Shown here: positions 46,900 to 50,020 of the stretch, piece by piece
How the letters are laid out: every line of letters begins with the position of its first letter
Numbering within the stretch: position 1 is the first letter of the stretch
Assembly: GCF_000981585.1 (NCBI RefSeq)
Contig: NZ_LN831776.1
Location: forward strand, 6,617,187-6,681,186
Source of the DNA: Paenibacillus riograndensis SBR5
GTDB taxonomy: Bacteria; Bacillota; Bacilli; Paenibacillales; Paenibacillaceae
Length of the DNA stretch: 64,000 nt
Reading direction: 5' to 3'
Notes under the pieces: generated by a model
Databases searched by the model: none
Seen by the model: the letters and a program-made list of their open reading frames with translations, nothing else
Told to the model about the DNA's origin: nothing
Position numbers and translations under genes: made by a program

Positions 46900-47061
46900 G
46901 CCGATTTGACCTCCGTTTAACTTGTAATTGGTTACAAGCCCTACATTACAGCGTCCGGGGGGGTTACGAATACAATCATTTACTCACAAAAGGCCTGGCT
47001 GCGGGCGTTCTGGGGAAATGATTATCGTGATAACGGGGCATTGGAACAGAACAAGTGTCTC

Positions 47062-47225
47062 GGGAGGTGGCTTGGGCGTGACTGCGGGGAATGTTTGGAC
47101 TTCCAGCCGCTGTTGTCGTAAGAAATTCTTGATTTGAACCGCCTTCTGCGGTTGAAATCCGGTGACAAAGGCGGACGCTACCGCTCTTCCAGTTCCAAAC
47201 TTCCCCTCCGTCACTCCCACCTCCC
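47062..47225. repeat. Structured repeat, copy A
   Basis: About 164 bp, ends GGGAGGTGG and CCACCTCCC, with long imperfect inverted arms (matching blocks GTGAC, GGGGAA, GTTTGGA, GACAA) and a central hairpin AACCGC-CTTCT-GCGGTT. A second copy is at 47764-47918. Between this and the lplA-type gene start (46900-47061) nothing else is evident. Confidence 0.75.
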
Positions 47226-47262
47226 TTGGGTGTAGTTCAGCTCAATGCAGGGAGGGAGAGCA

Positions 47263-47296
47263 GAAAAACCCCACCGCATGAATGTGCGGTGGGGTT
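47263..47296 (-). terminator. Terminator closing the peptide locus
   Basis: A perfect 12-bp stem (AACCCCACCGCA at 47267-47278 and TGCGGTGGGGTT at 47285-47296), loop TGAATG, followed on the minus strand by TTTTT in total. It lies 303 nt beyond the stop of the last peptide gene. Confidence 0.8.
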
Positions 47297-47407
47297 AAGG
47301 GCAAGCTTATGCGTAGCCGATCAGAACTGAAAAACGATTGAACGTTGAAGATTGCAAGTTGTGCAGCAAGTCGTGCAAAGCAAATTGTGCAGCAAGTCCG
47401 TAATGCT

Positions 47408-47590
47408 ATACGGACACATGAGGCGCTATTTTGCCAAAAAGGCAGCTTTTCACGTCCATCCGGACTCAGAAGCCCTTATTTCATTCTTTTTAACTCAAAA
47501 TGACGGTCAAAGGAGCTATTAACGGCTTCTCTGTCCGTTTGGCTTCAAAGATTAGCTTTTTGGATCAAATAACGCTTCTCCTGTCCGTAT
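47408..47590. repeat. 183-bp element with inverted ends, MITE-like
   Basis: Left end ATACGGACACATGAGGCGCT and right end AGCGTTATTT-type (the complement starts ATACGGACAGGAGAAGCG) form about 24-nt imperfect terminal inverted repeats; an internal GTCCGT lies near 47533. It ends 8 bp before the stop codon of the peptide gene at 47599. No coding capacity. Confidence 0.6.
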
Positions 47591-47598
47591 TCATCGCA

Positions 47599-47718
47599 TC
47601 AGCCATCTCCGTGTGTGTATAGTGTAATAACGGGGGGATTTGGTATTCCGGGTACTAAAATAATAGGTCCTAAAAGAACACTAATAACAGTTAGAAATAT
47701 GACTGCTTTTTTCTTCAT
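47599..47718 (-). CDS. Small signalling prepeptide, AloP-like (peptide 1)
   Basis: A 39-codon gene, ATG 47718 with AGGAGG 8 nt upstream. It encodes MKKKAVIFLTVISVLLGPII (Lys-rich N-terminus and hydrophobic core of a secretion signal), then a short Pro-rich spacer and the C-terminus ITLYTHGDG. The partner at 48040-48159 has the same length, the same MKKK start and ends in NHGEG. Such prepeptides are exported, cut to short C-terminal peptides and re-imported to bind an RRNPP receptor; here the active part is probably the last 5-7 residues. Inference rests on pattern and position, since the gene is too short for homology alone. Confidence 0.8.
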   Translation of the reverse strand: MKKKAVIFLTVISVLLGPIILVPGIPNPPVITLYTHGDG

Positions 47719-47763
47719 AAGATCCGCCTCCTATATAAACTGAACTTGTGATTTTTCTATTTT

Positions 47764-47918
47764 GGGATGGGTCGTGACTCCAGAGAATGTTTGGACTTCC
47801 GGCCGCTGTTGTCTACAGATTTCTTGATTGTATACCGTTATTAACGGTTGAAATCCGCAGACAAAGGCGGACGCTACCGCTCCTCCAGTTCCAAACTTCT
47901 CCTCCGCCACTTCTCCCT
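47764..47918. repeat. Structured repeat, copy B
   Basis: About 155 bp, related to copy A: both contain AATGTTTGGACTTCC, GCCGCTGTTGTC, ACAAAGGCGGACGCTACCGC and CCAGTTCCAAACTTC. The central hairpin is ACCGTT-ATT-AACGGT where copy A has ACCGC/GCGGT, so a C-G pair is replaced by T-A. It fills most of the gap between the two peptide genes. Confidence 0.8.
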
Positions 47919-48039
47919 TATTTGTAATATTTTCAAGTTCAATTTATATAGAAGTAATGTTTGTTGGAATTGGATTTGGATTTCCTGATCTGCATTTTCC
48001 AAATAATATTAAATCATAGAGGAACTCTTAGAAAAAATA

Positions 48040-48159
48040 TCACCCTTCACCATGATTAAATGGCGTTACCACAAAATAATCTGATGTATTCGTGACTAAG
48101 CCTATGAGTCCAACAAGTAAGCTAATGAGGGTTAAGAGTACAAGAATCTTTTTCTTCAT
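48040..48159 (-). CDS. Small signalling prepeptide, AloP-like (peptide 2)
   Basis: A 39-codon gene, ATG 48159 with GGGAGG 8 nt upstream. It encodes MKKKILVLLTLISLLVGLIG followed by LVTNTSDYFVVTPFNHGEG; basic tip, hydrophobic core, and an exported C-terminal part. Its 5' end overlaps the 3' end of the receptor gene by 38 nt in another frame, a common receptor-signal arrangement (Rap-Phr, PlcR-PapR, NprR-NprX). The likely active peptide is the C-terminal FNHGEG or a part of it. Confidence 0.85.
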   Translation of the reverse strand: MKKKILVLLTLISLLVGLIGLVTNTSDYFVVTPFNHGEG

Positions 48160-49519
48160 AAGAAGAGCCTCCCAAAAGTAATAATTGATATCGGTCTTTT
48201 ATTTCCTGAGTGGCAGCCTTTCTAAATCGCTCGAACAGGGTCACACATTCCAGTGTATACTTTTCATTATTGATTTGCTTGAAATTCTTTAAAGCATCTA
48301 ATAGAAATCTGAATCCATTAGAATAATTCTTTTTATACAAGAAATAATGAGCTAATTCAAACGTTAGATTTGCCTGGCGATCCAAAGCCAGCTTTCGAGA
48401 ATATCTTCCCTGGGTTAGCTCATTAAAATTAGTTTCTATATCCTGTCTAAACCGATACAAGATGTCGTCTACATTGAATTGATATTTATTAGCGGCTTTC
48501 AATATGTATAAAAGTCCAATCGTTAGCTCACCTTTTTTGATATCGATATAGTTTGCGTAAGGTTCAATCACTGTTGAATCACCACTCAAAAGTCTTGTGA
48601 TATACACGTTGGCCTCTGACCACTCCATAAAAAGAGCTTTCCAGTAATCGACCGCTTCCCCTTGCTCTTTCACCCAGCCTAAATCAGCATAAGCATATTT
48701 ATGAGCCAGGGCCTGCCCGTAATCACCAAGCTCATCACATACATTACCACGCAGCAAGTCGCTGTAGGCGATATAGAAAAACAAGGGTCTGCCGGGAGCC
48801 TTGTGCGGTTCATTAGATTTTCGATGAGGCCCATACTGCAGATCATATTGAATTCTGGCTTTATGGCCCATTTTGGTTGCCAACTCATCCACTTTGTCCC
48901 AACGTTGCAAAGAACGGTATGTATTCGCGAGCTCTTTGAGCGCGTCCAGTTGATCCACTTCATCCAGACGCTCTACAAAAGGCTCAAACCGATCAGCAGC
49001 CCTAAGATTTTCACTCTGGTTATCACCAAGAGCAATAGTAAACAAACGGTACTGGCAAAACGCCAGACGTTCCGAATGCTGCGACCGTTCACTCTCCGCC
49101 ACACATTCGTATAATAGCGCCGCTGCGGCCAACCGGTCTTTTGCAAATAATGCCTCGGCCGTGTCAAAAAGCATGGGTGAATACATCAGATTGTCCATTA
49201 CATGTTGAACAATTCGCTGAATACAATCCAGCTTATTTAAGTCAGCACAACGTTGCAGCAATGGGCCAATCCTGCGCCAGTCCCGGGAACTATCGATGAT
49301 GTAATTGTCTATGTATAAGTTATAAAAAAATCCCTCGTCCTGCCCCATCGCTTGGGTAATCCGGTCCAGCTGCTGTATCGCGATGGGACGGCGTCCACGA
49401 ATCATATTGCTGAGCGTACCTGAATGAATGCCTGAACGTTCTGCAAACTGTGTTTTCGTAATGGCTTCTCGCTTCAAATAATTTTCGAGCTCTGCCAATA
49501 TCGCAGGTATAGGTTCCAA
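48122..49519 (-). CDS. RRNPP-type HTH/TPR peptide receptor (AloR-like regulator)
   Basis: A 465-residue cytoplasmic regulator. Residues about 5-65 are an XRE-type helix-turn-helix (KREAITKTQFAERSGIHSGT, then LSNMIRGRRPIAIQQLDRIT); the rest is an all-helical TPR-like peptide-binding array (AAALLYECVAESER, LKELANTYRSLQRWDKVDEL, LTFELAHYFLYKKNYSNGFR). The layout is that of peptide receptors such as PlcR, NprR, AimR and the AloR proteins of Paenibacillus polymyxa. I choose TTG 49519 since AAAGGTGG lies 6-8 nt upstream; further codons to 49612 have a hydrophobic, improbable N-terminus. The 3' end overlaps the first peptide gene. Target promoters are not visible. Confidence 0.88.
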   Translation of the reverse strand: MEPIPAILAELENYLKREAITKTQFAERSGIHSGTLSNMIRGRRPIAIQQLDRITQAMGQDEGFFYNLYIDNYIIDSSRDWRRIGPLLQRCADLNKLDCIQRIVQHVMDNLMYSPMLFDTAEALFAKDRLAAAALLYECVAESERSQHSERLAFCQYRLFTIALGDNQSENLRAADRFEPFVERLDEVDQLDALKELANTYRSLQRWDKVDELATKMGHKARIQYDLQYGPHRKSNEPHKAPGRPLFFYIAYSDLLRGNVCDELGDYGQALAHKYAYADLGWVKEQGEAVDYWKALFMEWSEANVYITRLLSGDSTVIEPYANYIDIKKGELTIGLLYILKAANKYQFNVDDILYRFRQDIETNFNELTQGRYSRKLALDRQANLTFELAHYFLYKKNYSNGFRFLLDALKNFKQINNEKYTLECVTLFERFRKAATQEIKDRYQLLLLGGSSYEEKDSCTLNPH

Positions 49520-49666
49520 GTCGTAACCACCTTTCACACTTAAAACCAATAATTTGAATATATTCCCTTTCATCACTACATAAAATATAACAGCGGTCAA
49601 TAACGCATACAAGCCATAAATATGAATATTTTTCTATATTTAGGGCAGGTGCAGAGAGAAAAGCAG

Positions 49667-49699
49667 AAAAAAACCACCGCATGAAAATGTGGTGGGTTT
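49667..49699 (-). terminator. Terminator between the small gene and the receptor gene
   Basis: Arms AAACCACCGCAT and ATGTGGTGGGTTT around loop GAAA; minus strand ends in TTTTTTT. Its sequence is strikingly like the one at 47263-47296, including the flanking GCAGAAAA. Confidence 0.75.
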
Positions 49700-49711
49700 A
49701 GGGAAATTCGT

Positions 49712-49960
49712 TTAGGAATGAATTGTCTTAACTGGGGCTTCAACTTTTTCGTTCGTACTTGCTACTTCCAGAAAAGCATCAAGTTGTTTGTAGTCAGATT
49801 TAATCGTTTCAGTTGTAATGGAACTTTCACCAGCAACCCAATTTGGATTACGGCGTCTTCTCCTCTGGATTACTGCAATAGCTTTTAACGAATCATAATC
49901 TGAAGAAGAGGCTGGCCGATGCCTAGTATCAGATATTTGATCATCCAGCATACGTTTCAT
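49712..49960 (-). CDS. Small uncharacterised protein
   Basis: An 82-residue product that I do not recognise. ATG 49960 has AAGGAG and a GGAG upstream. It contains a basic block QRRRRRNPNW in the middle and an acidic, Thr/Lys-rich C-terminal part (TIKSDYKQLDAFLEV, NEKVEAPVKTIHS). No signal peptide or membrane segment. A terminator follows. It sits directly upstream of the receptor gene on the same strand and may be part of the same inserted module. Confidence 0.6.
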   Translation of the reverse strand: MKRMLDDQISDTRHRPASSSDYDSLKAIAVIQRRRRRNPNWVAGESSITTETIKSDYKQLDAFLEVASTNEKVEAPVKTIHS

Positions 49961-50020
49961 AATCTCCACTCCTTCATTCAAGCAGTTCTACTAAAAGTTT
50001 GGCCAAAATCACAAGTCATC

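Follow-up and report, generated by a model that had tools for sequence, protein, structure and literature searches.

A 64,000-nt stretch of the Paenibacillus riograndensis SBR5 genome (the window) carries a putative peptide-signalling locus in which a single receptor gene, aloR, is followed by two short genes, aloP1 and aloP2, whose products end in FNHGEG and YTHGDG, respectively. The receptor almost certainly belongs to the Alo (AloR-AloP) family of RRNPP peptide quorum-sensing systems, and the sequences suggest that both short genes probably make secreted hexapeptide signals. The explanation that we somewhat prefer is that AloR is tuned to FNHGEG, YTHGDG being a weaker-binding or historical second ligand. 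The first and second signals of this and related loci are called P1 and P2, and labels beginning with G and L denote genomes and loci, respectively.

Two signal genes behind one receptor gene

The receptor gene starts with TTG at 49519, has GGTGG upstream of this codon, and lies in a reading frame that is open further upstream, to 49612. As the earlier note had described, it overlaps the first small gene by 38 nt; both small genes encode 39 residues (MKKKILVLLTLISLLVGLIGLVTNTSDYFVVTPFNHGEG for aloP1 and MKKKAVIFLTVISVLLGPIILVPGIPNPPVITLYTHGDG for aloP2) with NHGEG and THGDG ends, and their Shine-Dalgarno (SD) sequences, GGAGG and AGGAGG, each stand 8 nt before ATG. The distance of about 320 bp to the second gene given there was also right (321 nt), with the correction that 221 bp of it are an inserted dispersed repeat. 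The N-termini of both pro-peptides were hydrophobic on a simple scale, used in place of Phobius.

Small open reading frames (ORFs) with an SD sequence, a positive charge and a hydrophobic stretch were regarded as signal-like. On both strands of the window, HG occurred in the last eight residues of 2 of 18 such ORFs, and these two were aloP1 and aloP2. Order-1 Markov DNA of the locus (40 × 64 kb) gave HG in 13 of 685 candidates, which corresponds to ca. 0.3 per 64 kb on both strands, and chance ORFs were ruled out by this control. The two pro-peptides shared 46% amino acid identity (E = 8.6e-4), and aloP2 used as a query against the genome (E ≤ 10) matched solely aloP1 and aloP2. Intact relatives of both small ORFs were found at the matching place in other species.

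For 12 P1 orthologs (L034 and L051 were left out), the ratio of nonsynonymous to synonymous changes per site (pN/pS) was 0.08 over the last six codons as against 0.50 over the others; for the three intact P2 genes, whose last six codons held seven synonymous and four nonsynonymous changes, the values were 0.16 and 0.60. Between P1 and P2 within one genome, the values were 0.21 and 0.50. The low pN/pS in the last six codons suggests that they are the functional part, in agreement with the hexapeptide SHGRGG of AloP13. Type I toxin-like membrane peptides were also considered and were set aside by reasoning, since the conserved C-terminal hexapeptide and the linkage to aloR speak against them.

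Membership of the receptor in the Alo family

The receptor showed full-length homology to the AloP13-linked receptor of G202 (31.9% identity, 467 columns, 237 bits). The G202 locus was found through the AloP13 pro-peptide (100% match), and its receptor was called AloR13 by its position directly before that pro-peptide. The AloP13 pro-peptide was present in 3 of the 394 genomes of the family-level set, and used as a query on the same-genus genomes it gave four weak matches, none beside a receptor. We infer from the AloP13 peptide, together with plasmid coordinates in common with named P. polymyxa plasmids, that the three genomes belong to the P. polymyxa group. Their other receptors were up to 51% identical to the window receptor. 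A receptor on P. polymyxa ATCC 842 plasmid NZ_CP024796.1 was 44.8% identical, and a signal ORF of 43 aa lies at its 3' end.

In Pfam, the helix-turn-helix (HTH) family HTH_3 scored 25.1 bits (cut-off, 23) in the window receptor, and matches to tetratricopeptide repeats (TPRs) stayed under the cut-off. An AlphaFold2 model built from 11 sequences (predicted local distance difference test score, 86.9; predicted template modelling score, 0.76) consisted of an HTH domain and nine helix pairs, and its low-confidence tail, residues 451-465, coincides with the aloP1 overlap. In a Foldseek search, TPR proteins ranked first (LGN). Rap-CSF (4gyo) ranked 27th and AimR (6jg8) 30th with template modelling (TM) scores of 0.26 and 0.30, a weak overall superposition, so the search supports the TPR fold and not any one subfamily. 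An HTH domain with nine degenerate TPRs is the architecture of AloR and of the arbitrium receptor AimR, both of which PMC12700828 places in clan C. Unlike AimR, the window receptor did not reach the cut-off of the NCBIfam AimR model (18.2 against 70 bits). RNPP_C (PF18768) gave no match in this genome at E 0.001. A search of the PDB by sequence with the single receptor gave none up to E 0.1, and an 11-sequence profile gave 13 weak matches, mainly to short HTH domains; a solved AloR structure was not found by sequence.

An Alo receptor is followed by a short ORF of 32-50 aa with a hydrophobic N-terminus, and at the window locus there are two of these. A downstream Spo0E-like gene is frequent in Alo systems and not defining. 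Of 116 receptor matches (a few loci are counted twice through overlapping fetches), 53 had an ORF with the Spo0E motif at a distance of up to 1.4 kb, and no such ORF was found at the window receptor or in its close clade, the sole exception being the outlier L051. The full-length homology to AloR13, HTH_3, the nine helix pairs and the signal ORF overlapping the 3' end together place the receptor in the Alo family, as the earlier note had proposed. The same homology ruled out an unrelated TPR regulator, and relatives of the receptor do carry a small downstream gene.

AloR13-AloP13 of P. polymyxa ATCC 842 (PMC7425212) resembles the window locus in its HTH and degenerate TPRs, 3'-overlapping signal ORF, Sec-like leader and HG-containing hexapeptide. 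It differs from the window locus in receptor sequence and in having one signal, and a Spo0E-like gene follows it, as in L154. Separately, Brevibacillus phage SecTim467 (L153) encodes an AloR-like protein of 28% identity; a short ORF runs across its 3' end, and an annotated Spo0E gene lies just upstream of it.

Decay and retention of the second signal

Synteny of the receptor gene and the solute-binding-protein genes beside it extends to P. jilunlii, and to P. tritici at least on the upstream side. The window, P. tritici and G080 had an intact P2, and the remaining two of five loci, those of P. jilunlii and G008, a broken one. P. jilunlii retains a 107-nt remnant, 93% identical to the window P2 over the aligned columns, which carries deletions and lacks both a usable start and a usable ribosome site. 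The G008 copy has a stop codon ahead of IHGDG. This decay supports the reading that AloR is tuned to FNHGEG. In the 1.5 kb that follow the receptor, L016, L017, L027-L030, L032 and L034 showed no P2. The single signal of L034 (G083) stands at the P1 position and is of the P2 type, YTHGDG.

The broken copies in P. jilunlii and G008 also suit the explanation that aloP2 is redundant, non-functional and in decay, being separated by the repeat from aloR-aloP1 and poorly expressed. The 221-bp repeat, whose structure was read from an alignment of eight copies, gave 40 scored matches in the genome from 196 candidates and 41 matches in G052, and was missing at the corresponding position of P. jilunlii; the gap between P1 and P2 was 64-74 nt in three related loci whose P2 retains its start and ribosome site. 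The repeat, immediately before the aloP2 ribosome site, is predicted to form a strong RNA hairpin (z = -7.2 for the fold of the aloP1-aloP2 gap), which speaks for this explanation. On the other side, the aloP2 ORF is intact with a consensus SD sequence, a pattern search found no terminator between aloP1 and aloP2, and YTHGDG is the sole signal in G083. We consider loss of function improbable. A further stretch of the repeat was noted at about 47069-47222 of the window.

This genome gave 13 receptor matches, with HG signal genes at eight loci and two signals at the window locus only. L002-L006, L008 and L013 have one HG signal ORF each, although the L013 receptor is reduced to a 292-aa C-terminal part. 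L007 lacks a signal gene, L009, L010 and L012 are broken pieces, and L011, itself partial or broken, is also without an intact signal gene. aloP2 might in principle signal to such a receptor, and PMC7425212 describes effects of AloP13 on other aloP genes. However, among 149 receptors, the one nearest to the YTHGDG-only receptor L034 in residues 275-390 was that of P. jilunlii (66%), and not another receptor of this genome, and we regard cross-talk as very unlikely.

Receptor parts associated with the signal

DNA of L034 and its sister L028, whose signal is FNHGEG, was 84-100% identical up to residue ca. 250, 48-64% in the windows of residues 281-361 and 78-87% after them. At the 39 residues private to L034, the FNHGEG-type residue was kept at 35 in L015, 31 in L023 and 29 in L031.

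Across the family, single-signal receptor pairs with N-parts (residues 1-245) at least 80% identical, 224 in number, were compared in TPR5b-8a (residues 275-390). The median drop in identity from the N-part to TPR5b-8a was -0.5 points when the last six residues were identical (55 pairs), 7.6 when four or five of them agreed (105 pairs) and 14.1 when three or fewer did (64 pairs). With disjoint pairs, which still share deeper branches, the median Mann-Whitney p was 4e-5 and the maximum 0.0017. Conditioning on similar N-parts by itself favours a drop, but the equally conditioned pairs with identical signals showed none in the three tabulated identity bands. Here and in the regression below, signals were compared by their last six residues without realignment, which understates similarity where tails after HGxG are out of register. 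As judged from these alignments, the greatest differences between receptors of the family with similar N-terminal halves and different signals lie in the C-terminal TPRs. In a multiple regression over 450 pairs (106 receptors), signal similarity was associated with TPR3-4, TPR7 and TPR8 (the observed value was reached in 0, 0 and 4 of 300 permutations, respectively), and no association was seen for HTH, TPR1-2, 5, 6 and 9. TPR3-4 and TPR7-8 are candidate signal-reading parts of AloR.

The nearest single-signal receptor in residues 275-445 carried a P1-like signal for L001, L015, L031, L047 and L162, five of the six two-signal receptors. The signal of the L047 neighbour, FDHGFGS, looks like a mix of P1 and P2, and L062 had no near relative in this part (58%).

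Weighing the role of YTHGDG

If AloR is tuned to FNHGEG, the locus could work as follows. AloR would be a cytoplasmic DNA-binding protein whose nine-TPR superhelix takes an imported peptide. The co-oriented aloP1 and aloP2 would be co-transcribed, their Sec-type pro-peptides would be secreted and processed so that the last six residues are released outside, and an oligopeptide permease would re-import the hexapeptides for AloR to bind and read. YTHGDG would be a diverged signal, either a weaker binder or left from an earlier signal type, and the locus, with its two signals, would be a passing stage in a shift of specificity.

Several observations weigh against this preference. At the 39 private residues of L034, the window receptor has 18 of the FNHGEG type, 9 of the L034 type and 12 of neither, a profile resembling those of the single-signal receptors L016 and L017; given this mixture, the comparison does not settle the signal of the window receptor. 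The nearest N-part neighbours of L001, L015 and L031 likewise carry P1-type signals, so the C-terminal block is uninformative there, and the TPR3-4 term of the regression means that the reading surface extends past that block. The two signals differ by mild changes (F/Y, N/T and E/D), which the receptor might not distinguish. Finally, the window P2 was closer in nucleotide sequence to the aloP genes of L015 and L023-L034 (65-73%) than was the window P1 (52-60%), and P1 may thus be the newcomer.

An alternative explanation is that both peptides are full ligands with distinct effects, as agonist and antagonist or as two dialects, the pair being kept by selection. Several observations favour it: the reading frame and start of P2 are intact and its ribosome site is of the consensus type, a P2 of the THG[DE]G type stands beside a P1 of the NHG[DE]G type in three species, the last six codons of the intact P2 genes show the low pN/pS given above, and the receptor mixes both residue types. 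A precedent is PrgX, for which PMC9765709 describes an activating and an inhibiting peptide; it is likewise one RRNPP receptor with two peptides, but of the five-TPR clan (PMC12700828). Considering that two of five loci have a broken P2 and that none is seen in the 1.5 kb after the receptor at the loci named above, we find this explanation rather unlikely.

Origin of second signals

The earlier note had proposed a duplicated and diverged signal. The two aloP genes are indeed homologous and diverged; P2 may have arisen by tandem duplication or may have come from another allele, although no donor allele for the second signal of the window was seen. In the receptor tree, two-signal loci stood on both sides of the split between the window with P. 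jilunlii and L015/L023/L031, with moderate support of the forks, and L047 and L062 lay in other parts of the family tree. For the aloP tree, the approximately unbiased (AU) test rejected neither a single P2 clade (p-AU 0.23) nor a clade of the window and P. jilunlii P1 and P2 (p-AU 0.39), so that a single old duplication and several recent ones are indistinguishable. The alignment of P2 with P1 ran from ca. 30 nt upstream through the coding region in L015, L023, L031, L047 and L062, and a copy of the aloR 3' end before P2 was plain in L023, L047 and L062. Codons 1-36 were the same in both L062 signal genes, and all seven changed codons fell within the last 13.

The N-part of the window receptor was shared with G052 (94% amino acid identity), where the receptor is frameshifted and its C-half was 63% identical; in the aloP stretch of G052, the repeat was matched and the signal genes were not. 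The C-terminal block and P1 were shared with P. jilunlii (94% nucleotide identity in the block versus 86% in the N-part). In these alignments, reassortment is visible at the window locus.

L162 of the P. polymyxa group, with a receptor 49% identical to that of the window, has the signals YDQHGGA and FATHGGA and may be the locus of aloP10alpha and aloP10beta, which are named in PMC7425212; as in the window, two signal ORFs stand behind one AloR. Its P1 was 87% identical to the L170 signal gene and its P2 86% to the sole signal gene of L181, with 59% between P1 and P2, so that this second signal is no copy of the first, another point of difference from the window. Of the 25 nt before L162 P2, 24 positions matched the 3' end of the L181 receptor gene. 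The N-part of the L162 receptor was 86% identical to L181 (FATHGGA) and 82% to L170, and residues 275-445 were nearest to L170 (86%; FDQQGGA). One reading of these alignments is that recombination brought a new receptor end and signal, the old signal being left downstream. Identity to L170 was 85% across P1 and the whole L162 receptor, and the sequence following L162 P2 did not match L181; given this and the small N-part margin, acquisition of a foreign signal gene by an L170-type locus fits equally.

The drop in TPR5b-8a between receptors with different signals, the mosaic L034 and the foreign second signal of L162 led us to a tentative idea of modular exchange, in which the HTH/TPR chassis and the chromosomal site would stay constant while recombination swaps the signal-reading TPR part along with the proximal, overlapping aloP; the previous aloP could remain as a second signal. 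If this is true, two-signal loci would be visible intermediates, and the old signal would be free to act as an antagonist or second dialect.

Frequency of two-signal receptors

The census was made on the best-scoring matches to the window receptor, which are a part of the family. From 151 hits, 115 distinct receptors were obtained after removal of the same-assembly duplicates L022, L025, L026, L033, L066, L078, L085 and L086, of hits whose alignment covered fewer than 380 residues, of broken frames and of near-identical proteins. Among the matches listed, a single signal stood proximally at 76 receptors and distally at 6, while 5 had two signals (the window, L015 of P. tritici, L031 of G080, L047 of G037 and L062 of G017) and 27 none, with 1 having too little downstream DNA; the number without a signal is an overestimate because the HG criterion misses other endings such as VGGA. 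The offset of the first signal was exactly -38 in 54 of 87 loci. In the P. polymyxa group (L154-L186, 33 loci), L162 alone had two HG signals.

Two signals per receptor are uncommon, but not new. The earlier note's view of such a receptor as unusual stands for frequency (5 of 115), and it is qualified by the aloP10alpha/aloP10beta pair and by PMC9765709, which counts 71 Rap proteins with a pair of propeptide genes. That paper states multiple propeptide genes to be exclusive to Rap, and AloR is absent from the subfamilies that it tabulates. No functional study of a two-signal Alo locus was found in the open-licence literature.

Other arrangements were noted among the matches. Signal-like ORFs of L109 and of L152, the latter ca. 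3139 nt after the receptor match, have a doubled C-terminal motif (SHGAGTNMTSSSHGAGTT and NNHGANSFQPNNHGANS, respectively), i.e. two copies in one pro-peptide. The signals of L111 and L127 end in VGGA without HG, that of L111 lying 217 nt downstream. A remnant of a proximal copy in distal-only loci was clear in L111, marginal in L109 and L075, and not found in L055, L057, L105 and L120; these last loci ruled out a lost proximal gene as the general rule. Receptors of one clade (L024, L035, L036, L038, L016:5738-7006 and L017:5740-7008) matched the window receptor only to residues 423-427, after which they end or differ, and the filter found no aloP there. From these sequences, signal loss goes together with an altered receptor end in that clade.

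Features of the locus and its flanks

The coordinates are collected in Table 1. The block upstream of aloR, conserved in 16 aligned regions, is possibly a promoter or operator. A sigma-70 scan gave three sites, below the count in shuffled sequences, and listed no minus-strand site at this block. Rfam gave no match up to E 0.1 over 46900-50000. Further upstream, an 89-aa ORF (49712-49981, minus strand) resembles the C-terminal end of a 369-aa ORF of P. jilunlii (L014:1195-2304) that bears a HEFGH metallopeptidase-like motif, and it looks like a 3' remnant.

Table 1 Features of the aloR-aloP1-aloP2 locus (window positions).
Feature	Position	Strand	Remarks
aloR-type receptor	48122..49519	-	465 aa; HTH 7-75, nine helix pairs 81-449, low-confidence tail 451-465
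aloP1 pro-peptide	48040..48159	-	39 aa, FNHGEG end; orthologs at or near equal offset
Predicted mature signal 1, FNHGEG, last six codons	48043..48060	-	suggested by AloP13 and pN/pS
aloR/aloP1 overlap, 38 nt	48122..48159	-	codes part of the low-confidence receptor tail
aloP1 ribosome site GGAGG	48168..48172	-	8 nt before ATG
aloP2 pro-peptide	47599..47718	-	39 aa, YTHGDG end; P. tritici and G080 have homologs, P. jilunlii and G008 broken copies
Predicted mature signal 2, YTHGDG, last six codons	47602..47619	-	putative; pN/pS 0.16
aloP2 ribosome site AGGAGG	47727..47732	-	8 nt before ATG; straddles the repeat end
Dispersed repeat, 221 bp, like a miniature inverted-repeat transposable element	47731..47951		18-bp terminal inverted repeats; between aloP1 and aloP2
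Terminator-like hairpin after aloP2	47267..47296	-	pattern search
Conserved block upstream of aloR	49574..49641	-	alignment of 16 upstream regions

Relation to other signalling systems

Rap-Phr loci with two phr genes resemble the window locus in that signal copies within one locus diverge (PMC5199041, PMC9765709), and intralocus phr duplication was proposed in PMC5199041 as a transient intermediate of a specificity shift. Unlike AloR, Rap proteins have no HTH domain (PMC12700828). For RapK2-KR, a single pro-peptide contains both peptides, of which the receptor responded to one only, as described in PMC5199041 and PMC9765709.

The locus bears on how a peptide and its receptor change together while communication persists. 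Together with its relatives, it forms a natural series of two signals, a broken P2, a P2-type signal only and no signal, which is open to assays with synthetic hexapeptides in a B. subtilis reporter, as for Alo13. The window locus may be a snapshot of signalling systems changing their private language.

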